A stretch of DNA of 64,000 bases from Woeseiaceae bacterium (lineage in GTDB: Bacteria > Pseudomonadota > Gammaproteobacteria > Steroidobacterales > Woeseiaceae): assembly GCA_021773095.1 (NCBI GenBank), contig JAJFKR010000028.1:154905-218904 (forward strand), read 5' to 3'. The notes below the pieces were generated by a model, which saw nothing but the letters and a program-made list of their open reading frames with translations, had not been told where the DNA came from and made no database searches. Shown in pieces: positions 5,929-49,853 of the stretch; positions within the stretch are counted from its first letter, which is position 1, and each line of letters begins with the position of its first letter. Position numbers and translations under genes: made by a program.

Positions 5929-6630
5929 CTAGTTTGCCGATTCGGCCGGGTATTTGAGAATAAATGCCTCGTATTCACGGTCGGCGTCCAGGACGGCCCC
6001 CGATTCACGCAGTTTGGCGATACATTCCATCCAGCTTGCCGCCGATTGCCGTGCCTCTGCATCGCAGGCAGACGCAGAGTCAGACTCTTTTTTCTCAAGT
6101 GAAGCCGCCGTGGGGGACACGGGTTCTGTGGTGACCTGTCGTTCTAAAGCGGGTCGAATCGAGTTGTCCGGGCCTGAGTCCGGCTGATCCGTGGCGAGCG
6201 CATCAGCGGCAAGCTTTCTCGCGGCGGGTCTGGCGGCGGCAGGCGACGATGCAGCAAATGAGTTGTGCTTACCCTTGGCTTCGCTTTTCATCGGGCTGGC
6301 ATCTTCGAGAATCATTTCTTCAAGGACCGCACCTGTCGGGGCAAATTCATCTCGGATCGACTCACCCACCGGTGCGATGTCTATCGCTATGGGCGTTGTT
6401 GGTACCTCGGAATACTCAATTACGATGGCCAAACTGAGCGCGATTGTTGCCGCCCAGGCGACGGGCTTCATCCATGCTGCGAACAACAATCCTTTTTTGC
6501 CGCCTTCCCGGCCGGCCGCCATACGCAGAACGCTCTGATTCAGATGCTCGGGAGTTTTCGGCGCGGAAAGCTCACGATACGTATCGGACACGAGTTCGTC
6601 CGTGTCCGCTTTGTCTCGTTCACTAGTCAT
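5929..6630 (-). CDS. Putative anti-sigma factor / membrane-anchored partner of the adjacent ECF sigma
   Basis: 233 aa with one TM ([16 protein letters not shown]); start overlaps the stop of the upstream sigma gene, suggesting translational coupling. Confidence 0.55.
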
Positions 6631-7175
6631 TGTGGCTCCTCGATGGCGGCACGGAGTTTGTTGACGGCATAACGCAGACGGCTCTTGGCTGTTTCGCGGT
6701 TGCTGCCCGTTACCGAAGCTATCTGATCAATAGTGAGCCCTGCTTCTTCGTACAACAAAAACGCGTCGCGTTGTTCGTCGGGCAAATCCCGTAGCGCAAG
6801 TGTCAGGCGTTCTTTAGCCAGGCTGCGTTCTGTAATCGTGTCCGGCGATTCCGATGTATCGGCGTGAAACCCGGGCTCGAATTCCACGTTATTGGAATGG
6901 CGTTTGTTGCGGCGCACGTGGTCGATAAAGCAATTATGAGCGACCCGGTACATGAAGGTAGTGAATTTGGCGGTTGCGCGATATTTAGAGCGCGCCTTGA
7001 TGATCTTGCCCCATACATCCTGAAAGATATCCTCAGCCGTCGCCTGATGCCGGCACAGCCTGAGCAAATAGCGATACAACGCGTCATTGTGACGCTTGTA
7101 CAGCGTTTCGAAAGCGGCCGTGTCGCCGTCCTTGTATCTGAGCATCAGTGCGCTGTCTTCAGGTATGTGCTCCAT
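6627..7175 (-). CDS. RNA polymerase sigma factor, sigma-70 (ECF) family
   Basis: MEHIPEDSALMLRYKDGDTAAFETLYKRHNDALYRYLLRLCR...AEDIFQDVW...; sigma-4 region LTIDQIASVTGSNRETAKSRLRYAVNKLR; start chosen at internal Met 7175. Confidence 0.88.
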   Translation of the reverse strand: MEHIPEDSALMLRYKDGDTAAFETLYKRHNDALYRYLLRLCRHQATAEDIFQDVWGKIIKARSKYRATAKFTTFMYRVAHNCFIDHVRRNKRHSNNVEFEPGFHADTSESPDTITERSLAKERLTLALRDLPDEQRDAFLLYEEAGLTIDQIASVTGSNRETAKSRLRYAVNKLRAAIEEPQ

Positions 7176-7341
7176 CGGGTGAGCATAGGCGAGCGGAGCC
7201 GCGCTGCAAAGGCCCGCGGAGGCCGTTGCCAGCTTGTGTGCCATGGTTTCGATGCTCGCAACCATTAGAAATCCCCGGTAATGATGCTTGTATAAACGAC
7301 GGGCAGGGCAGTCACGGGTTAGAAAATTCTGTAGAAAAGGC

Positions 7342-7369
7342 TTGCAATCAGCCAATCTAGTGTTATAGT
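7342..7369 (+). promoter_or_regulatory. Predicted sigma70-type promoter (-35 TTGCAA, 16-bp spacer, -10 TATAGT)
   Basis: TTGCAA at 7342-7347, TATAGT at 7364-7369; the -10 lies inside the palindrome at 7360-7381. Confidence 0.6.
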
Positions 7370-7381
7370 CAACTATAACAC
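7360..7381. promoter_or_regulatory. Palindromic operator candidate GTGTTATAGT-CA-ACTATAACAC
   Basis: Perfect 10-bp inverted repeat with 2-bp centre upstream of the GntR/ABC operon; related copy at 49631-49652. Confidence 0.7.
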
Positions 7382-7420: not shown

Positions 7421-7672
7421 ATGTCCAAACCAACCGTACATTTTGGCGACTATGTCAGCCTGGCCGTAATGCTGCTGATGTTTGTGGCGTTGGTGGCCGG
7501 ACAGGCAGGTGCGAGTAGCCATGCGAATGACGAGGCAATGCCTGTTAGCCCGATAGCCGTCGAAGACAGTCGATTGCATCTCGATCTTGATGGCCACCTG
7601 AGCGACAAGGCACTGAAAATCAGTATCGCTATTGTCAAAGATTTGCGTCATTTCCGTGGCGAAGACGAGTAA
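7421..7672 (+). CDS. Small secreted or membrane protein, first gene of the GntR/ABC locus
   Basis: 83 aa MSKPTVHFGDYVSLAVMLLMFVALVAGQAGASSHA...; signal/TM segment; downstream of promoter/operator and upstream of a terminator. Confidence 0.55.
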   Translation: MSKPTVHFGDYVSLAVMLLMFVALVAGQAGASSHANDEAMPVSPIAVEDSRLHLDLDGHLSDKALKISIAIVKDLRHFRGEDE

Positions 7673-7690: not shown

Positions 7691-7725
7691 GCGCCGGTCC
7701 GGTTTAAACGGACCGGCGCCTTTTT
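7691..7725 (+). terminator. Rho-independent terminator
   Basis: GCGCCGGTCCG / CGGACCGGCGC 11-bp stem, 7-nt loop, followed by C then TTTTT. Confidence 0.85.
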
Positions 7726-7772: not shown

Positions 7773-8165
7773 ATGGATCCGAAGTGGAATGAAGATCAGC
7801 CGATTTATCGGCAGTTGCGAGACCGGGTCGTTGCAATGATTCTGGAGGAGGTGCTGGTTGAAGGCGACGCATTGCCCTCGGTCAGAAACGTTGCCGCCGA
7901 ATACCGACTGAATCCGCTCACGGTACTCAAGGGCTACCAGGAACTGGTAGACGAAGGGCTGGTTGAGAAAAAACGCGGCAGGGGAATGTTCGTCAATGAA
8001 GGCGCGCGAATCATGCTTCTCAAGGCCGAGCGAGAACGGTTTCTCGAAAAAGAATGGCCTGCGGTCGTCGCAACCATAGTGCGTCTGAAGCTGAACGCAG
8101 CAGATTTACTGAAGCAAGCGGAATCAATTAATTCGAAGAAGGATTCTGGAGGGGAGAATGACTAG
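7773..8165 (+). CDS. GntR family transcriptional regulator (short, YtrA-like)
   Basis: [74 protein letters not shown], GntR wHTH with no large effector domain. Confidence 0.9.
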
Positions 8166-9015
8166 TCTGGTCAGCGCGAAGAGTGTATCCAAACATTTTG
8201 GCTCATTTACAGCCGTCGACGATGTTAGTTTCGAAATTGAAAGCGGCAAAATTCTCGGTCTGATCGGTCCGAATGGTGCTGGCAAAACGACATTGCTCAA
8301 GGCTTTACTGGGTTTAACCGATTGCGAGGGTCAGCTGTCGGTGATGGGTCTGGATCCGTTCCGGCAACGCAAGGAATTGATGCAAAACATCTGTTTCATT
8401 GCGGACGTCGCAGTACTTCCAAGGTGGATCAGGGTTACTCAATTACTCGATTACGTCGAAGCGATACATCCTAACTTCTCGCGTGCTCGTGCCGAAGAGC
8501 TGCTGCAACAAACCAAAATCATGGCTAAGTCCAAAGTTAAGGAATTATCGAAGGGCATGGTGACGCAGTTGCATCTTTCGATAATTATGTCGATCGACGC
8601 GAAACTCCTGGTTCTCGACGAGCCAACACTGGGTCTGGACATCCTGTTCCGAAAGGAATTCTACGCGAATCTGCTGAACGACTACTTCGACGAAGAACGC
8701 ACAATATTGGTGACGACGCATCAGGTCGAAGAGATCGAAAACCTGCTGACAGACATCATGTTTATCAATGACGGCAGGATCATCCTGAGCTCCTCGATGG
8801 AGGCGCTTCCGGGCACCTACATTGAGGTCGCTGCCTCCGGAGCGGATGCCGACAAAGCGAGAGGGCTGGCACCCATCGCGGAGGGTCAGATGTTCGGAAA
8901 GTCCGTGATGTTGTTTGAAGGCGTTAGTCGCGAGCATTTGGAAGGGCTCGGTGACCTGCGTACACCCTCGGTAGCTGATCTCTTCGTTGCGAAGGTCAAG
9001 GGAGCCAGAACATGA
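8158..9015 (+). CDS. ABC transporter ATP-binding protein
   Basis: Walker [15 protein letters not shown] signature, [11 protein letters not shown] Walker B; overlaps the GntR 3' end by 8 nt. Confidence 0.92.
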
Positions 9016-9929
9016 TCACTCATCAACTGGCACTCGTAAAGCGTGAAATCTGGGAGCATCGCTCCATTTTTGTCACACCGATAGCCATCGCGATAATCGT
9101 CACGCTCGGTGTGTTGGCGATGGTGGTGTTTGTGTCCGGCTTTGCAGAAGAACTCCACCTGGCGATCTTTGGTGTGCAAAATATCGCTGGTGACGCAGAG
9201 CGCAAAGCCGCCCTGACAGGGTTCTTTCTGGGAACGTCATGGGTATTCCTTATTGCACTGGCGATTCTGACGGTCTTCTATTCACTCGATTCCCTGTACT
9301 CCGAACGCAAGGACAAAAGCATATTGTTCTGGCGCTCACTACCGGTGACCGATGCCGAAACTGTTATTTCCAAATTAATCATAGCAATTATCGTAATTCC
9401 GGTGGTTACCGTTATAGGAATTATCGGAACCCACATCATCAACCTGATCATTACGAGTATCTGGGTCTCGATGAAGGGTGGCGATGGCTGGATGTTGATC
9501 TGGGGCTCCGTGTCACTCGTCGATAACTGGCTTGCGGCATTCATAATCGTAATTACGAGTGGCATCTGGATGTCACCGTTTATCGGCTGGTTTCTGCTTG
9601 TATCGGCCTACACGAAACGCGCGCCACTATTAATGGCATTCATGCCCCTAATCCTGATCGGCTTGCTGGAAGGCATTATTCTACGAACGCACGTGTTCGC
9701 CGAGAATGTACTCGCACGCGGTGATGGCATACCGATTTTCCGTACCGTAGACATTGAAAAATTCTTCAACGAAGAACAATGGCGTCTTGGGGACGGAGCC
9801 ACCCGCCTGCTGGTGCACCTTGATATTGTGCAGTTTCTGACAAGTCCCGCTATGTGGGCTGGCGTGCTTGTATGTGGACTGCTTTCGACAGGCGCCATTT
9901 ACGTTCGCCGTTACCGCGACGAAAGTTAG
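9012..9929 (+). CDS. ABC transporter permease
   Basis: 305 aa, multiple TM segments, SLYSERKDKSILFWRSLPVTD; ATGA overlap with the ATPase gene. Confidence 0.85.
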   Translation: MITHQLALVKREIWEHRSIFVTPIAIAIIVTLGVLAMVVFVSGFAEELHLAIFGVQNIAGDAERKAALTGFFLGTSWVFLIALAILTVFYSLDSLYSERKDKSILFWRSLPVTDAETVISKLIIAIIVIPVVTVIGIIGTHIINLIITSIWVSMKGGDGWMLIWGSVSLVDNWLAAFIIVITSGIWMSPFIGWFLLVSAYTKRAPLLMAFMPLILIGLLEGIILRTHVFAENVLARGDGIPIFRTVDIEKFFNEEQWRLGDGATRLLVHLDIVQFLTSPAMWAGVLVCGLLSTGAIYVRRYRDES

Positions 9930-26176: not shown

Positions 26177-26207
26177 AAAAATGGCGGTGGCCGGGGCCAC
26201 CGCCATT
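26175..26207 (-). terminator. Rho-independent terminator for the minus strand (ilvA), overlapping the helicase stop codon
   Basis: AATGGCGGTGGCC / GGCCACCGCCATT 13-bp stem; on the minus strand followed by TTTTTT. Confidence 0.8.
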
Positions 26208-40378: not shown

Positions 40379-41164
40379 ATGGAAATGAAAACTCAAACAC
40401 GAAGACTCAATTACGTTTGGTTTGTACCGGCGGCGTTATTGCTGTTAGCAGCTGCGGCGACAAGTCGGGCAGAGGAAAGCCCGGAGATACGTAGCAGCGC
40501 AAGCTCGGCAGGGCAGGGAATTCAGCGAGACGGTGTTGGTGATCGCGTGACGACTTACGACGAGCTCGATCCGCTGGTCGTCAACGGTAGCCGCGCCAAT
40601 TCGACGCGGGCAAGTGGACAAAAGAACCCGGCTGGTGGCACGTTGCAGTCAGGTGCCCAATCACCCAACGTCGATTTCTGGATTTTCGACGCTAGCGTCG
40701 TACTATTTTCCGACCTGGACCGAGACGGGTTTTACTTTGGGATTGATCTCATCTTTGATGCCGACACCATTTACGACGTAGCTGATGTCTACGCGGTACT
40801 CTATCTGAGTTACGAATTGGGTCCCTGGAACGAGTATGCGTCTACCGAAGACTTTACGATATTCGGCGCATCGGGAGGCGACGAGTATTCCATCGAGACG
40901 GAGCTGCTTTCCGGGTATGTCACCGGTAGCTACGACATTCTGATCGAGCTATTTGATGCTTCCGATGGCACGTTCGTGGCCAGCTTCGGACCAGACGAAT
41001 CATCTCAATTGTCTAACTTGCCACTGGAAGATGCGGGTCGAGATACGCCGCCAGGCACCACAATCGTAGTTAACGAAGGTGGCGGCGGGGCGTTAGGTCT
41101 GCTCGGTCTGCTGGCCTTGCTCGGTGTTGCTGGAGTGTTTCGATTACGAACGGCTGCTGTCTAG
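40379..41164 (+). CDS. Secreted protein with C-terminal GlyGly-CTERM-like sorting signal (choice-of-anchor H-like)
   Basis: Signal peptide; repetitive Asp-rich beta region; C-terminus NEGGGGALGLLGLLALLGVAGVFRLRTAAV (Gly-rich, TM, Arg). Confidence 0.7.
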   Translation: MEMKTQTRRLNYVWFVPAALLLLAAAATSRAEESPEIRSSASSAGQGIQRDGVGDRVTTYDELDPLVVNGSRANSTRASGQKNPAGGTLQSGAQSPNVDFWIFDASVVLFSDLDRDGFYFGIDLIFDADTIYDVADVYAVLYLSYELGPWNEYASTEDFTIFGASGGDEYSIETELLSGYVTGSYDILIELFDASDGTFVASFGPDESSQLSNLPLEDAGRDTPPGTTIVVNEGGGGALGLLGLLALLGVAGVFRLRTAAV

Positions 41165-44100
41165 GCTTTAACGGTCTCTGCATGGCCCTGGCGGGCCGTG
41201 CGCATGACCTTCCTGCTCCACGCAGCGAGACTGTCGAAGTAGACATACAAAGCCGGGACGACCAGCAACGAAACGACTGTTGAAAAGGCGAGACCACCGA
41301 TAATTGCTCTGGCCATCGGGTAGTACGGCGGCCCATCGCCACCGACCTGAGTCGTTCCCATCGCAAGCGGCGCAAGCCCGACAATGGTCGTAGCGACGGT
41401 CATCAGAATGGGCCGCAGACGGTCACGACCGGCAATCACGATGGCTTTGTCTCTAGCCACGCCGTCCTGCCGCAGATTGTTGATGTGATCAACAAGCACG
41501 ATACCGTTATTCACCACGACACCAATGAGAATCATTATGCCGATCATCGCCATGAAGGAAAAAGTGGTGCCGGTTGCAGCGAAGAAAAGAAATACACCGA
41601 AGATCGAAAAAACGATGGAACCAAGAATAATGGAGAACGGCAAAATCATTGATTCGAAAAGAGCGGCCATCACGAGAAAAATACAGGCGATACCCAATAG
41701 AATGTTGGTCATCATCATGCCGGCGGTCTCATCCTGTCGCTCAAAACCCCGTCCTTCCTTCCAGCTGTAGCCCGGTGGCAATTCGAATTGTTCCATCAGG
41801 CTGTTCACCCGGGGACGCACCTCATCAATGCTGGCATCATCTTCCAGGTTCGCCGATAAAATGACGGCTGTCTGTCGATCGGTACGCCTTATGTTGTCCG
41901 GGGATCGGCCGACCTGCAGTGACGCAACGGTGCCGAGGGTGATGCGGCGGCCTTCGGGTGTGTACAACGGCAAGTTGGCAAGCTGCTCAATGCTTTGTCG
42001 GTCGTCTTCGCGGAACGCCAGGCGTACGGCGACTTCGCCATTCTTGTCACGAAATTCCCGAAGGTTCTCGCCACGCATTGCGATACCGACCGCCTGAGCG
42101 ATCGCCTGGGTCGTCAGTCCGACATTTGCGGCGCGCGTGCGATCGATATTGACTCGAACCTCCTTGTTGCCTGATTCGCCATCGCTGATGACGTCTTTGA
42201 GGCCTTCGACGCTCGCAAGAGATCGGGCGATTTCGCTCGCCAGGTCATTCAAAACCTCAGTGGAATCACCGCTAATCTGCAGAGTGAAGCCGTCACCACC
42301 GCCCTGTTGATCAAATGAAAAGCTTGGCTTGCCGATCGCGAGCTGTGGGAGATCTGCCTCGATTAACGCGATAATTTCCTTGGTCGACAGAGTCGCATCG
42401 TCCTTGTCCGTGAGCAGGATCGTAGATTCCGCACGTTCCTGATCGTAATAGCTGTACACCGAGCGAATATTGAATTCCTCCTGGCGTGAGTACAAATACT
42501 CTTCAATCCTGTCAACAGACTGTTCAATACGCTCGAGAGAGTGCTGGCCCTCGACGTGGTAGGGCATGTACAAACGACGTCCGACATCCTGTGGAAACAT
42601 GTCAAATTTTACGAGCTCCAGCGCCAAAGGTAATACACCAATCACACAGACCAGACCGATACCCAGCGCCGTCCACCAACGGTGGCCAAGAATCCAATCG
42701 AGGCTGGCGGCATAGCGGGTAGTGAGGCGCGACATCCATGCTCCGGCCTTCGGTTGTGGTGGCACAGCTATTCGCGAGGCCAGCATCGGCACCAAAGTCT
42801 GAGCGATGAATAATGACGCGATCAATGCGACGATAATCGTTACTGCGACGTGCGACAGGAAAATCGATGTGTCGGTTTTCGCGCCGACAATCATCGGCGC
42901 GAACACAATAATGGTCGTCGCTGTACCGGCTATAACCGCCAGTCCGACTTCACTGACGCCCTTAATTGTCGCCTCGACAGGCTTGTCCGGATTGTCCGTC
43001 CGATGGCGAAAAATACTTTCCGTAACGACGACGGCGTTATCGACCAGCATACCGACCGCCAGCATCAAGCCCATCATCGTCAATATATTCAGAGTCAGGC
43101 CCGCAAAGTACAACGCCCCGAGCGTGATCATCAGTGAAAAGGGTACAGACGCGGTGACGATTAATGTTGTCGTTACCTGGCGCAGAAACAGGTACAGCAC
43201 GAAAATAGCCAGCAGGCCACCGAGTGCTCCTGCGCCCAGCAAGTCACCGAGTGATTCCCGTACGGCCTCACCCTGATTATCCAGCGAGAAAATGTTGATG
43301 CCATTCATCTCTGGCAACTTGCCGATTTTTTCGACTTCGGCGATCACACGGTCGGTCACGTCAACCATATTTGCGCCAGTCGCTTTGCTAATAGCAACAC
43401 CGATCGCATATTGTTTGTCCAAATGCCGGCCGTAATTTCGATCCGGCGTTCGCAATTCAATATCGGCGATGTCGCGCAGGCGCAAGCCGCTGTCGTTCAG
43501 TGTCAGGTCTCTTATCTCATCGACAGAACCGAATTCTCCACTCGGCCGTACGCTAAAGCGCTGATCACTTGCGGTGATCTTGCCGGCACTTACGGAGAAG
43601 TTGCTATTCATCAAAAGGTCGCGAACAGAGGCGACATCGACGCCGTGTGCCGCAAGTTGGTCCGGCTTCAGAAGGATTCTGATTTCCCGTGGATCGACGC
43701 CCTGCAACTCAACGCGCGACACGCCCTCAATGCGCTCAAGACGACGCGTCAGGAGGCGATTGAGTATCTCGTAACTGCCCGACAAATCTCGTGCAGACGA
43801 AATTCTCAGTTGCAAAACGGGTTGATCACCCAGTGACCCTGTGAAAACGAGGATCCGTCGCACGTCATTAGGTAACAGGTGGCGAATGCTGTCGACTTTC
43901 GCACGAGCTTCGATGCCTTTGGCGCCCATGCTTTGATCCCAACCGAATTGCAGGAAAATTTGCGCCTGGTTTTCATCGGAGCTGGAGAACATCCGTTCAA
44001 CACCGGATAACGTCGCCAGCGCTTCCTCGACTGGACGAGTGATTAGCCGTTCGACCTCTTCGGGCGTGGAGCCATCGTAGGGCACCAGCACGAATATTCC

Positions 44101-44229
44101 GGGGAACTCTATATCCGGAAACTTCTCCAGCGGTAACAGCTTGGACGCGAGCACGCCGACCAGGGATAAAGCTACGAATACGACGACTGTCGTAACCGGG
44201 CGACGTAGCGCAACTTCGGTGTGTTTCAT
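41161..44229 (-). CDS. Efflux RND transporter permease subunit (second pump of operon)
   Basis: 1022 aa; RRPVTTVVVFVALSLVGVLA; VDNAVVVTESIFRH; IGVVVNNGIVLVDHINNLR; AcrB/HAE1 type. Confidence 0.95.
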   Translation of the reverse strand: MKHTEVALRRPVTTVVVFVALSLVGVLASKLLPLEKFPDIEFPGIFVLVPYDGSTPEEVERLITRPVEEALATLSGVERMFSSSDENQAQIFLQFGWDQSMGAKGIEARAKVDSIRHLLPNDVRRILVFTGSLGDQPVLQLRISSARDLSGSYEILNRLLTRRLERIEGVSRVELQGVDPREIRILLKPDQLAAHGVDVASVRDLLMNSNFSVSAGKITASDQRFSVRPSGEFGSVDEIRDLTLNDSGLRLRDIADIELRTPDRNYGRHLDKQYAIGVAISKATGANMVDVTDRVIAEVEKIGKLPEMNGINIFSLDNQGEAVRESLGDLLGAGALGGLLAIFVLYLFLRQVTTTLIVTASVPFSLMITLGALYFAGLTLNILTMMGLMLAVGMLVDNAVVVTESIFRHRTDNPDKPVEATIKGVSEVGLAVIAGTATTIIVFAPMIVGAKTDTSIFLSHVAVTIIVALIASLFIAQTLVPMLASRIAVPPQPKAGAWMSRLTTRYAASLDWILGHRWWTALGIGLVCVIGVLPLALELVKFDMFPQDVGRRLYMPYHVEGQHSLERIEQSVDRIEEYLYSRQEEFNIRSVYSYYDQERAESTILLTDKDDATLSTKEIIALIEADLPQLAIGKPSFSFDQQGGGDGFTLQISGDSTEVLNDLASEIARSLASVEGLKDVISDGESGNKEVRVNIDRTRAANVGLTTQAIAQAVGIAMRGENLREFRDKNGEVAVRLAFREDDRQSIEQLANLPLYTPEGRRITLGTVASLQVGRSPDNIRRTDRQTAVILSANLEDDASIDEVRPRVNSLMEQFELPPGYSWKEGRGFERQDETAGMMMTNILLGIACIFLVMAALFESMILPFSIILGSIVFSIFGVFLFFAATGTTFSFMAMIGIMILIGVVVNNGIVLVDHINNLRQDGVARDKAIVIAGRDRLRPILMTVATTIVGLAPLAMGTTQVGGDGPPYYPMARAIIGGLAFSTVVSLLVVPALYVYFDSLAAWSRKVMRTARQGHAETVKA

Positions 44230-47200
44230 CGTCTATCCATTAATGAGTAAACAACCGGAATCACGACCAGTGTCAACAGAGTGGACACGGTCAGTCCACC
44301 AATTACAGTGATCGCCATCGGCGTTCGGACCTCGGAGCCTTCACCGAATCCCATCGCCATCGGCAGCAAGCCCAATGTCGTTGTTAGTGACGTCATTAGA
44401 ATCGGACGGAGGCGCGCGGTACCGGCTTCATGAATCGCCTCGAATCGTTCTTTGCCCTGGGCGCGCAACTGATTAATCAGATCAACCAGCACAATCGCGT
44501 TGTTTACGACGATTCCGGCTAGCATGATCACACCGATGAACGCGACAATATTAATTGTCGTGCCGGTGACAAACAAAGCAAGCACTGCACCGACCAAAGC
44601 AAGCGGAATCGTAAAAAGGATCACGAAAGGATGAATCAGAGATTCGAACTGCGATGCCATGACCAGGTAGACAAGGAAAACAGCGAGTGCAAGGGCGAAC
44701 TGCATGGACTTGAACGAGTCCTGCATTTCTTCGCTCTGGCCCGACACAACTGCGCTAATACCTGCAGGCAAGGGCGTTCTGTTGACGATGTCGCCGGCTT
44801 CGGCCGCTGCCGCGCCGAGATCACCATAAGCAAGATTGGCTGAAATTATTGCTACACGGTCCTGTGCCACCCGGCGAATTTCCGCCGGCCCCTGGGATAC
44901 TGTGATATCGGCAACAGCATCCAGCGTGACCGGTCGCTCCGAGCTTGGATTAACGATCAGGCGGCGGATTTCGTCAATACTCGATTGACGGGTATCGACA
45001 CTGCGCACCAGCACATCGATTTTTTTGTCTCGCCAGGTGTATCGGGTCGCCAACTCACCTCGAACACTCGCGACTACGCTATTCGCGATATCGCGTACCG
45101 TAAGCCCAAGTTTCGCGGCGCGCTCCTGATCGAAAACAATCTGAATCTCAGGGTTGCCGATTTCGACGGTCGTCTTGATGTCCGTAAAGCGATCCGAGGT
45201 CGACATCGCCTGTTCGATAGACTGACTGACTCTCGCCAGACTGCTGAGATCGTACCCGGAAATTTCGATTTGCAGCGGGCTCGCGAATGACAGCAATGAT
45301 GGTCGCGTGAACTCGTACTGGACACCTGGAAGGGTCGCCAGTTCGCTGCGCATTGCTGCCATGGTCCGGTTTTCTGCCGCACGCCCGGAACCTTCTTTCA
45401 GTTTGATGCTGAGCGTACCGGTATTGTCGCCAGCATCAACAGGGTTTGCATCGAGCCTGTTGCCTGTTCCGGCGACTGAATAATTGAGGTCCACGACGTC
45501 AATGCCGGCTGCCACTCGCTGTGCAACCTGAATAGCGTTGTCGGTTTCGCCCAGTGGCATCCCAGGGGGTAGTCTCAAATTGGCTGTGAATTCACCCTGC
45601 GAAAATTGTGGGATAAGCTCCGAGCCGAGTCGTGGCACCAGAGCCATCGTCCCCAGGAACAACAGCAGTGAAACCAAAATAATTACGAATCGATGTTGTA
45701 AGGACCACCGCAAAATGCCGGGATAAATTGCAGCGATCGATTTATAGAAGCCTTGAAGCAGCCAGGTCGGGACCCATAATAACGCCCAGAAAATTTTGCC
45801 AATCGCGAAGAACAAATAACCGAATAACCCTACAACAAAAGCAACGGCCCGGGTAAACCAGTTGGCGGGCGTGGTGTCGCCGCCGTCGTCGTAGCGACTC
45901 TGCGCACCGAGCGATGCAAGCATCGGAATCAGCGTGAGTGCGACAACGAGAGAAAACAATAGAGCAAATGTAACGGTCAGTGCCTGATCTTTAAATAACT
46001 GCCCGGCGATGCCACTGATGAAAACCATAGGAAAAAATACGGCGATTGTCGTTAGTGTGGCGGCTACGACTGCCCCGCCGACCTCAGCCGTACCGTTTTG
46101 CGCAGCCTCGACGATGCCCTCGCCCTGCTCTTTCTTGCGCACGATGTTCTCAAGAACAACGATGGAGTTATCGACCAGCATACCGACGGCGAGTGCGATG
46201 CCACCCATTGACATGATGTTCAGAGAAATTTCATTCGTATACATCAGCAGGAACGTGCCGATAACGGAAACAGGAATCGCAATTCCAACAATCATCGTTG
46301 CTCGCGCATCCCTCAGGAAACCATAGAGCACGAATATCGCAATAAGGCCGCCCAGAATCGCCGCCAGCCGGACGTCGGCCACAGCGGACGAAATGAAGGT
46401 CGACTGGTCGTAAATGCTGATGATCTCGATATCGTCCGGCAGAGACTCGTCAAGCGCCTGCAAGCGCCGTTGAATGCGTTCGGCCACCTGTACGGTATTC
46501 GCGTCGCCCTCCTTGTAGACCGCGAGTTCGACCGACTCCTGACCTTTGACTCGAGTAATCGCCTCACGGTCCTTGTAGCCTTGCTCGACGGTGGCGACGT
46601 CGCGCAGATAGACGGGGCGGTCGGCGACGTAAGCAACAATCGCGTCGCGGAATTCATCGATGTCCTGGAATTCATTAATTGTTCTGACGAGAAAGCGCTG
46701 ATTGCCTTCCTCGAGGCGTCCGCCGGACAGATTGACGTTTTCCGCGCGAATACGTTCAGCTATTTGCCCGATACTAATACCGAGTTGTGAAAGTTTTTGC
46801 TGGTCCACCCGAATCTGAATTTCGTCTTCAAGTCCGCCACTGACTTTTACGGCAGCTGTGCCTTCCTCGGCTTCGAGCTCAGCTTTAATCCGGTCTTCCG
46901 CGAGACGGCGCAGGGCTTTCAATTGAGCCTCGGAGGAACCCGTCGCCTTACCGTCTTCGTACAGCAGACCTAACCTTACGATAGGCTCTGAGGACGGGTC
47001 GAAACGCAGTAGCAAGGGTCGACTGGCTTCCAGTGGCAGAAACAGAATATCCAGTTTTTCGCGGATATCGATACCGGCCATATCCATGTCGGTGCCCCAC
47101 AGGAACTCGACCGTGACGTCGGCCTGACCGGATCGGGAAACCGAACGTACGAGTCGGACGTTTCTAACAACCCCGACAGCCTCTTCGATCGGTTTGGTCA

Positions 47201-47390
47201 GGAGATTCTCAATTTCTACGGGTGCCGCACCCGTCAATTCTGCCCGAATAGTGAGCGTCGGATAGGAGATGTCCGGCAACAGGTTCAGACTAAGTCGTGA
47301 CAGCGACACCATGCCGAACAGTACGATAGCCGTCATCATCATGACGATCGTGACGCGGCGCTCCGTAGCGATCTCGATTAAACGACGCAT
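44226..47390 (-). CDS. Efflux RND transporter permease subunit (first pump of operon)
   Basis: 1054 aa; VDNSIVVLENIVR; VVNNAIVLVDLINQLRAQGKERFEAIHEAG; AcrB/HAE1 type. Confidence 0.95.
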   Translation of the reverse strand: MRRLIEIATERRVTIVMMMTAIVLFGMVSLSRLSLNLLPDISYPTLTIRAELTGAAPVEIENLLTKPIEEAVGVVRNVRLVRSVSRSGQADVTVEFLWGTDMDMAGIDIREKLDILFLPLEASRPLLLRFDPSSEPIVRLGLLYEDGKATGSSEAQLKALRRLAEDRIKAELEAEEGTAAVKVSGGLEDEIQIRVDQQKLSQLGISIGQIAERIRAENVNLSGGRLEEGNQRFLVRTINEFQDIDEFRDAIVAYVADRPVYLRDVATVEQGYKDREAITRVKGQESVELAVYKEGDANTVQVAERIQRRLQALDESLPDDIEIISIYDQSTFISSAVADVRLAAILGGLIAIFVLYGFLRDARATMIVGIAIPVSVIGTFLLMYTNEISLNIMSMGGIALAVGMLVDNSIVVLENIVRKKEQGEGIVEAAQNGTAEVGGAVVAATLTTIAVFFPMVFISGIAGQLFKDQALTVTFALLFSLVVALTLIPMLASLGAQSRYDDGGDTTPANWFTRAVAFVVGLFGYLFFAIGKIFWALLWVPTWLLQGFYKSIAAIYPGILRWSLQHRFVIILVSLLLFLGTMALVPRLGSELIPQFSQGEFTANLRLPPGMPLGETDNAIQVAQRVAAGIDVVDLNYSVAGTGNRLDANPVDAGDNTGTLSIKLKEGSGRAAENRTMAAMRSELATLPGVQYEFTRPSLLSFASPLQIEISGYDLSSLARVSQSIEQAMSTSDRFTDIKTTVEIGNPEIQIVFDQERAAKLGLTVRDIANSVVASVRGELATRYTWRDKKIDVLVRSVDTRQSSIDEIRRLIVNPSSERPVTLDAVADITVSQGPAEIRRVAQDRVAIISANLAYGDLGAAAAEAGDIVNRTPLPAGISAVVSGQSEEMQDSFKSMQFALALAVFLVYLVMASQFESLIHPFVILFTIPLALVGAVLALFVTGTTINIVAFIGVIMLAGIVVNNAIVLVDLINQLRAQGKERFEAIHEAGTARLRPILMTSLTTTLGLLPMAMGFGEGSEVRTPMAITVIGGLTVSTLLTLVVIPVVYSLMDRR

Positions 47391-48457
47391 TACTCGACAC
47401 CCGTGTCCGGCTCGTTAATAACAACCACTTGGGCTTCATTCTTGAGTCCAACGTGCCCAACGGTAATAACGTTTTCACCATCCGTCAGACCGGCAGTAAT
47501 TTCGACCTTGCCACTACTGCTAAAACCGGTCTCGACCAATTTGCGGATGCCAATTCCGTCCTCGACAATGAATACAGAGGTTTCGCCACCGGATTCGATG
47601 ATCGCGCTACGCGGTATCTGCAGGACATTCTCGTGCCTGTCGTAAATAATCTGCATTCGGCCAAACATCCCGGGTTTGATGCGCTGCTCTTCACCCGTCA
47701 TTTCGATCGTGATCTTGAAGGTTCCTGTTTCCGGATCCACGACCGGGCTGATACGGGTAACTGAGGCGATAACCGGCGTTCCTGGTAAAGCATCAATTTC
47801 GATTTGTACCGGTTGGCCGGCGGCTATTTGACGAAATTCCCTTTCGGGCACGTACATGTAAGCCACCAGCGGATCGAAGCTGGTTATCCGAAACACCGGG
47901 TCGCCGGTCTTAATCGTATTACCCAGCTTCAAGTAGCGTTCGGATACGACACCATCGATGGGTGCGCGAATCTGCGTGTAATCGAGTTCGAGACTGGCGA
48001 GATTGTAGGATGCTTCGAGCGCTTCGAGATCGTACCGAAGTTTCTCGAAATCTCCCTCACTAAGCAGGCCCTTGTCCTGAAGTTCCTTGTTGCGTTGAAA
48101 ATCGCGCTGCATCTTTCGGAGCCGCGCCTGCGATTCGCTGAGTTCGAGTCTCAGGCGATTGCCGTCCAGTGTCGCGAGGATCTGGTTTCTGCTGACCATG
48201 TCACCTTCCTCAACGTGCAACTCGCGAACTTCTCCGTCGACTTTGGCAATGACATCGGCCTCGGCCAGTGCCTCAATGGGTGCAGTGCCGGTATACGTCG
48301 CGTAGATGTCGCCTCGCACCGGCGCGGTTGTCTCGACCGGTATCGGTGGCGCTTCCTCTTCATCGGACTGTTCGTCTCCAACCTCGACATCCTGCTGGCA
48401 GACGCTTAATAACAACACACACGCGAGCGCGGTTGAGCCGATGCGAAATAGCCTCAT
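47390..48457 (-). CDS. Efflux RND transporter periplasmic adaptor (lipoprotein)
   Basis: Lipobox-like LLSVC; lipoyl/barrel-sandwich and coiled-coil adaptor features (LDGNRLRLELSESQARL..., APIDGVVSERYLKLGNTI). Confidence 0.92.
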   Translation of the reverse strand: MRLFRIGSTALACVLLLSVCQQDVEVGDEQSDEEEAPPIPVETTAPVRGDIYATYTGTAPIEALAEADVIAKVDGEVRELHVEEGDMVSRNQILATLDGNRLRLELSESQARLRKMQRDFQRNKELQDKGLLSEGDFEKLRYDLEALEASYNLASLELDYTQIRAPIDGVVSERYLKLGNTIKTGDPVFRITSFDPLVAYMYVPEREFRQIAAGQPVQIEIDALPGTPVIASVTRISPVVDPETGTFKITIEMTGEEQRIKPGMFGRMQIIYDRHENVLQIPRSAIIESGGETSVFIVEDGIGIRKLVETGFSSSGKVEITAGLTDGENVITVGHVGLKNEAQVVVINEPDTGVE

Positions 48458-48521: not shown

Positions 48522-49607
48522 TCAGCCCGTGAATCGGTCCAGATCGCTTATGCTGGCGAGCACCTTGCTGCCGTCGCGAAGACCTGAATGCCCGACTACG
48601 ACGATTTGATCGTCTTCCAGAAGTCCGGCAAGAATTTCGACACGGCCGTTGTCTTCAATGCCAACCTCGACGAGGCGGCGAACAACTTCGTCGTCTTCAA
48701 TGACATAGACGGTTGTTTCTTCGTCTTCATCCAGTAGTGCGTTGGCCGGTATGACGAGCGCGTTGCTATGTTTTTCGTAGGCGACGGTGAATCGACCAAA
48801 CATACCAGGAGCCAGATTGCCGTCTTTATTGTCTATCACGGCCGTTGCGCGGAAAGTTCCGCTGCGCGTATCAATGGTTGGGCTGATGCGAACAATTGTC
48901 GCCGCGAAATCATCGTTTGGCATGGAAGCGACCTTAACCGTCGCTTCATTACCGGCGTCAAATTTGGCCAGTTCTGCCTGTGGTATCTGCAGGTAAGCAA
49001 TCAACTCCCTGGTTTCCGTGATTCGGAACGCGACCTGACCAACAGCCAAACTCTCGCCTGCTTTTACGTCTCGCGAAGAGACTACGCCCGAGATCGTCGC
49101 ACGGATATTCGAATAATCGTAATTGAGTCGTGCGAGGTTGTAGGTCGCCTGTAGCGATGCGAGGTCGAACTTCAGTCCGTCGTACTGCGATGTACTGACA
49201 AGACCCAGCGCATGCAAGCCCGTGTTGCGTTTGTAGTCTTTCTTGGCGCGCTCAAGGTTTGCTTTCGCCGCCAGCATCTCAAGTCGCAGTCGCTCTCCGT
49301 CGAGGCGCGCGAGTAATTGTCCCACTTTGACGCGGTCGCCTTCTTCAACGAGCAGATCGACGACTTCTCCCGCGATCCTTGCGATTACCGGTGCATCCGA
49401 GTCGGATGCGATGGAGGCGCTTGCCACGTAGGTTGCGTAAATATCCGAACGAAACGGCGTCGCGGTCTCGACAGGTACCGGTGTTGCCGCCGTGATGACA
49501 TCGCCATCAGCAACGCTGGCTTCACCGACGCCGCATCCTGAAATCAGCGCGGAGCTTGCAAGCGTAACGGCGATAAGAGCGGCGGGAATCGGGTTCAGGG
49601 ATTTCAT
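48522..49607 (-). CDS. Efflux RND transporter periplasmic adaptor (lipoprotein), first gene of operon
   Basis: Lipobox ISGC; VEEGDRVKVGQLLARLDGERLRLEMLAAKANLERAKKDY...; ATISGVVSSRDVKAGESL. Confidence 0.92.
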   Translation of the reverse strand: MKSLNPIPAALIAVTLASSALISGCGVGEASVADGDVITAATPVPVETATPFRSDIYATYVASASIASDSDAPVIARIAGEVVDLLVEEGDRVKVGQLLARLDGERLRLEMLAAKANLERAKKDYKRNTGLHALGLVSTSQYDGLKFDLASLQATYNLARLNYDYSNIRATISGVVSSRDVKAGESLAVGQVAFRITETRELIAYLQIPQAELAKFDAGNEATVKVASMPNDDFAATIVRISPTIDTRSGTFRATAVIDNKDGNLAPGMFGRFTVAYEKHSNALVIPANALLDEDEETTVYVIEDDEVVRRLVEVGIEDNGRVEILAGLLEDDQIVVVGHSGLRDGSKVLASISDLDRFTG

Positions 49608-49630: not shown

Positions 49631-49652
49631 GTGTTGTAGTGAAGTATAACAC
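49631..49652. promoter_or_regulatory. Palindromic operator candidate of the RND operon, related to 7360-7381
   Basis: GTGTTGTAGT-GA-AGTATAACAC (minus strand GTGTTATACT-TC-ACTACAACAC); minus-strand promoter TTGCGT, 16-bp spacer, TATACT with -10 inside the palindrome. Confidence 0.65.
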
Positions 49653-49853
49653 TAGCTCGGTATAACGCAACAATTGACTTCACATTTGAAGGAATATGCT
49701 GCCGTTAATAATAAAAACAATGAGTTAGGGATCTACCTCGAGTCGCCAACGCGGCTACTCGACTATTAGATGCCTGAAATCCGAATTTGGATTGATTTTC
49801 TTGCAGGAGATATCCCGGACCCTGGCAGAGCGTGAAGTCACGTTTCTAGCCAA

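Follow-up and report, generated by a model that had tools for sequence, protein, structure and literature searches.

We propose that the perfect palindrome at positions 7360-7381 of this stretch of Woeseiaceae DNA is the operator of the linked GntR protein (7773-8165), which would repress its own ABC cluster together with an RND efflux operon, a tolC gene and the gene of a 158-aa exported protein. In our estimate this reading, which is drawn from sequence comparisons, has a probability of roughly 0.87. Below, the window means the whole 64,000-nucleotide stretch that was analysed, and its features are collected in Table 1.

Table 1. Features of the window, with the operator sites found elsewhere in the same genome
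Feature	Position	Strand	Remarks
Promoter of operator 1	7342..7369	+	-35 TTGCAA 7342-7347, 16-bp spacer, -10 TATAGT 7364-7369
Operator 1 (site 1)	7360..7381	+	perfect 10-bp inverted repeat, 2-bp spacer, GTG-N16-CAC; start codon 39 bp away; precedes small ORF, then gntR and two ABC genes
Small ORF	7421..7672	+	83 aa, single-TM/exported; first gene after operator 1
Intrinsic terminator	7691..7724	+	11-bp GC-rich stem, T5; between small ORF and gntR
gntR	7773..8165	+	predicted 130-aa YtrA-subfamily GntR regulator, proposed cognate repressor (Pfam, 3TQN match, structure model)
ABC transporter ATPase	8158..9015	+	start overlaps gntR end
ABC-2 type permease	9012..9929	+	after ATPase
RND permease 2	41161..44229	-	MdtB/C-like; 31% identical to permease 1
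RND permease 1	44226..47390	-	MdtB/C-like
MFP 2	47390..48457	-	periplasmic adaptor; 41% identical to MFP 1
MFP 1	48522..49607	-	periplasmic adaptor; first gene of RND operon
Operator 2 (site 2)	49631..49652	-	GTGTTATACT-TC-ACTACAACAC; in RND operon promoter; start 23 bp away; MFP-MFP-RND-RND operon
RND operon promoter	49643..49670	-	-35 TTGCGT 49670-49665, 16 bp, -10 TATACT 49648-49643
Site 3	C12:350467		start codon 39 bp away; stand-alone tolC, 469-aa TolC-family protein
Site 4	C39:29550	-	start 16 bp away; 158-aa exported protein

Operators, promoters and genomic targets

Re-reading the sequence recovered, exactly as the preliminary description had it, two palindromes with the same spacing and a common core. 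Operator 1 reads GTGTTATAGT-CA-ACTATAACAC, both 10-bp arms being perfect, and has the 2-bp spacer and CTAGTGTTATA in common with operator 2. The two promoter pairs reported with them, TTGCAA-16-TATAGT and TTGCGT-16-TATACT, are also present, and the -10 hexamer of the first falls inside the left arm of its operator. Elsewhere in the window there is a perfect 12-bp inverted repeat at 26181-26206 (ATGGCGGTGGCC-GG-GGCCACCGCCAT) that is unrelated to the operator.

The motif is rare. Allowing up to 3 mismatches, a scan of the window returns just operators 1 and 2, and 100 dinucleotide shuffles of the window return nothing. A scan of the genome with the 22-bp motif had been suggested earlier, with random occurrence outside promoters as the outcome that would speak against the idea. 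In the whole 3,414,417-base MAG genome the pattern GTGTTATAGT-NN-ACTATAACAC finds four sites at up to 3 mismatches, all of them promoter sites 16-39 bp ahead of the first start codon, so that no random scatter is seen. The reversed control pattern has no match in the 3.4-Mb genome, and a looser, differently specified pattern recovers the identical four sites and none further. All genome-wide site counts given here come from such pattern searches.

The operon behind operator 2 has, like the heteromeric pumps MdtABC and MuxABC, two different RND permeases with accompanying adaptors, and its best PDB match is MdtB. It differs from MdtABC in having two adaptors in this genome, in scoring below every NCBIfam equivalog cut-off (363-455 bits for the MdtB/MdtC models, against cut-offs of 1584-1774) and in its predicted control by a GntR protein in place of the two-component system BaeSR that governs MdtABC. 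Most families have one adaptor per RND operon; this genome, like two other families, has two. The genome holds six RND permeases, and the site is carried only by the two of this operon, in which (49607-41161) no outer-membrane channel gene was found. The site-bearing tolC lies apart from any RND gene, whereas two other channel genes adjoin other RND genes; its upstream neighbour resembles a protein-L-isoaspartate methyltransferase gene. With a pump that has no channel and a channel that has no pump, joint control would make functional sense.

The linked GntR protein had been proposed to control its own locus and the RND operon. Site placement, the rarity of the motif and the co-occurrence described below agree with this, but the list of targets was incomplete: it has to be extended by tolC, by the 158-aa protein and sometimes by macA. 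A MacA-like adaptor gene also stands behind the operator in some Woeseia-type genomes (L114, L121; G015, G019), and in the present genome no operator was found at macA. The 158-aa exported protein (L003:1008-1484, minus strand) has no match in a Pfam search. It has a conserved C-terminus, LPGxS...K.QMYRRDI, and its gene adjoins one resembling a tail-specific protease.

In the genus, an ECF sigma factor gene (window 6627-7268, minus strand) is divergent from operator 1, and one relative (G014) carries the region with operator and ECF sigma gene twice, the second copy lying at the end of a contig (L104, G014:C11). We considered the sigma factor gene as a regular target and rejected it, since its position is taken by a malate dehydrogenase-like gene in other families.

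Conservation and co-occurrence with the GntR protein

Homologues with names place the source organism among Woeseiaceae-type gammaproteobacteria. Among 60 relatives, whose genomes are mostly MAGs, the motif is found in 54 and the reversed control in none. The 158-aa protein is an extra target in Woeseia-type genomes. In the other families of the order the sites examined precede gntR, tolC or an RND adaptor gene, usually one each, and the RND operon has the operator in every order family where that operon was examined. One tolC site (G043) falls below the threshold, yet is present with 4 mismatches. Outside the order, sites occur with gntR, tolC and an RND adaptor in one genome (G221) and with gntR, tolC and a MacA-like adaptor in another (G094); in a third (G288) two adaptor genes lie near sites.

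Of 173 loci with a gntR orthologue, some of them redundant, 167 have a site in the 700 bp ahead of the gene (at most 4 mismatches). The remaining six comprise four loci where the sequence reaches just 60-321 bp upstream, and two with 5-mismatch sites. The distance from site to gntR is 22-81 bp where no ORF intervenes, and the site is kept, in degenerate form, even at 50-58% protein identity.

Aligned as 66 distinct oriented sites, the motif carries 1.57 bits per position, against 0.24 in the upstream and 0.13 in the downstream flank. The arm that faces the -35 contains TATA[GC]T in 62 of the 66, so the operator covers the -10 region; the second arm (ACTAYAACAC) is conserved as well. At most gntR, RND and exported-protein promoters a TTGC -35 lies 16 bp upstream, and the -35 and -10 hexamers are conserved across families. 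The promoters of tolC are mostly without a clear -35.

One could suspect a chance or common promoter resemblance with no dedicated regulator behind it, as the AT-rich -10 hexamer in the promoter-facing arm would be kept in any case. Against this stand the absence of matches in shuffles and controls, the unconserved flanks, the conservation of the other arm and the same three targets across the order. We give this explanation practically no weight, and a chance motif was ruled out by the shuffles, the reversed controls and the flank comparison.

The regulator and its sites are distributed together. Taking E < 1e-40 to define a GntR orthologue, all 16 order-level genomes outside the genus that have one also have sites, and none of the six order genomes that lack one does (G041, G047, G048, G050, G055 and G058). 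One further genome, a 450-contig assembly (G054), is ambiguous: it has a tolC site and no GntR orthologue was found in it. The six GntR-less genomes keep tolC and have no orthologue of RND permease 1 (E <= 1e-200). Their tolC promoters show 8-11 mismatches to the motif, no better than shuffles. Among 276 genomes of the class the motif occurs in 11 of 16 with the orthologue and in 7 of 260 without it (Fisher p = 8e-12, across many families and uncorrected for shared ancestry), the seven being single 3-mismatch hits at or below the reversed-control rate.

The recurring targets, the site upstream of gntR and the joint absence of GntR, sites and RND permease thus point to the linked GntR as the regulator, and we have high confidence in the prediction that it acts through the palindrome. 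TetR or MarR repressors often run RND operons, and one encoded elsewhere might bind the palindrome and control the gntR-ABC locus too. We think this very unlikely given the tight co-occurrence with GntR, the retention of the site by gntR at 50-58% identity and the GTG-N16-CAC architecture, which is of the YtrA type. In principle, a second regulator might also be co-distributed with GntR. The motif is not one that all GntR paralogues have in common: paralogues with 40-46% identity in three genomes (G005, G022 and G055) lack such a palindrome within 500 bp, and in G055 the motif is absent from the whole genome.

The GntR protein and its locus

The GntR protein has an N-terminal winged helix-turn-helix domain (PF00392, E = 1.2e-12, residues 12-74). 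At 130 aa it is within the 120-130 aa range of YtrA proteins and has their short C-terminal domain, with two helices only (78-104 and 109-125; AlphaFold model, pLDDT 90.5). The nearest solved structure by sequence is PDB 3TQN (E = 1e-31, residues 4-114, near full-length), a GntR protein of Coxiella burnetii that has the NPLTV recognition region in common with it. The gene lies in an ABC operon, with the ATPase and permease genes next, and an ABC homologue follows gntR in relatives too. The operator is a long palindrome with GT/AC far from its centre, GTG-N16-CAC being invariant or nearly so in the 66 sites. R38 and N47, putative DNA-contact residues, are invariant in 27 GntR orthologues and correspond in position and spacing to Arg42 and Asn51 of YtrASa. 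Judged by these anatomical features, the protein belongs to the YtrA subfamily. The regulon departs from the pattern: a YtrA regulon, as usually described, mostly consists of one ABC operon (PMC4494728), and here sites are also found at tolC, the RND operon, the exported protein and, in some relatives, macA.

The earlier description missed what lies between operator 1 and gntR: the first gene is the ORF of the 83-aa membrane protein, followed by a conserved terminator and only then by gntR. No Pfam family was found for the 83-aa protein (7421-7672). Most Woeseia-type loci have a small protein behind the operator, about 54-105 aa long and with a single TM segment at its N-terminus. Of 92 distinct regions from such loci, 46, the window included, have a GC-rich hairpin and T-run ahead of gntR, and the same search on mononucleotide shuffles gives 0. 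The gap between T-run and gntR is just 12-14 nt in several relatives, too short to hold a separate promoter; gntR would therefore be expressed by read-through of the terminator or from a start inside it. With a strong terminator ahead of gntR in the window, autoregulation would not be simple.

Mechanism and relation to known systems

We suggest that a GntR dimer binds GTG-N16-CAC where it overlaps a sigma-70-type promoter, at the -10 hexamer and the start region, and so blocks RNA polymerase, promoter occlusion being the most likely mode of repression. The same protein would sit on the matching sites of the MdtABC-like double-RND operon, the stand-alone tolC and the 158-aa gene, and on macA in some relatives. 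An inducer, probably some stress to the envelope or from antimicrobials, would free GntR from its operators, and the cell would then produce the pump and its channel along with the ABC transporter and the small envelope proteins. Once derepressed, the GntR protein's own locus would yield the small membrane protein first, and gntR with the ABC genes probably through partial read-through of the terminator. The sequences themselves show the sites with their targets, the overlap with promoters, the conservation, the co-occurrence with GntR and the GntR subfamily; physical binding, repression as the sign, the inducer, the transported substrates and the read-through are what we infer here.

Overlap with the -10 had been called a repressor geometry. 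The overlap is real, but geometry alone is no proof of repression: HpaR1, also of the YtrA subfamily, binds from -21 to +10 and activates (PMC4730234). The linked GntR could in the same way be an activator, or act with mixed sign (tolC activated, the others repressed), stabilising RNA polymerase at the -10 as HpaR1 does at gumB. The tolC promoters, mostly without a -35, would fit activated promoters, and the sign of regulation at tolC could differ. However, the gntR and RND promoters, which combine a near-consensus -10 with a TTGC -35 at a 16-bp spacer, should need no help to fire, and repression is what the characterised YtrA-type regulators encoded beside membrane proteins exert (B. subtilis YtrA, YtrASa). 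Activation is thus unlikely in our view, and repression is the sign that we favour.

A close parallel in layout is B. subtilis YtrA, also a small GntR repressor: it is encoded together with an ABC transporter, its operon opens with a small transmembrane gene, and it has a second, distant membrane-protein target (ywoBCD). In ytrGABCDEF the small transmembrane protein gene ytrG comes before the repressor gene (PMC12772383), and the 83-aa ORF would be the positional analogue of YtrG. Unlike in B. subtilis, the targets here include a tripartite RND pump and a Gram-negative TolC, and a terminator stands between the small ORF and gntR. YtrASa of Sulfolobus acidocaldarius represses the operon that encodes it, as well as a single further gene for a membrane protein, and has the conserved Arg and Asn contacts, but it has a shorter 14-bp core motif, archaeal promoters and no efflux pump. 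In operator architecture the likeness is to YtrA of X. citri, also of this subfamily and from a gammaproteobacterium, whose GTG and CAC are 16 bp apart as well (GGTG-N16-CACC; Zhou et al. 2017, as far as cited in PMC6746942).

Taken singly, the parts are familiar. In the papers searched, which did not extend to RegPrecise or the Suvorova 2015 supplement, we came across no conserved YtrA regulon of several operons that joins ABC, RND and TolC, and the predicted combination would be new relative to that literature. We know of no natural ligand for YtrA-subfamily regulators. A more tentative idea, to which we give somewhat less than even odds, is that the YtrA-type regulator serves as a dedicated co-assembly switch for a trans-envelope pump whose genes are spread along the chromosome, turning on jointly the RND pair, the orphan TolC, the ABC exporter, MacA in some lineages and two small envelope proteins, with a conserved leaky terminator after the first small gene fixing the ratio of small protein to repressor and ABC transporter.

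For the biology of this largely uncultured marine-sediment order, a precise operator would define a conserved regulon in which an ABC system is linked with an RND pump as well as with the pump's missing outer-membrane channel. A predicted regulator can be assigned to a stand-alone tolC and to a channel-less RND operon, and two small envelope-protein families are singled out for study.
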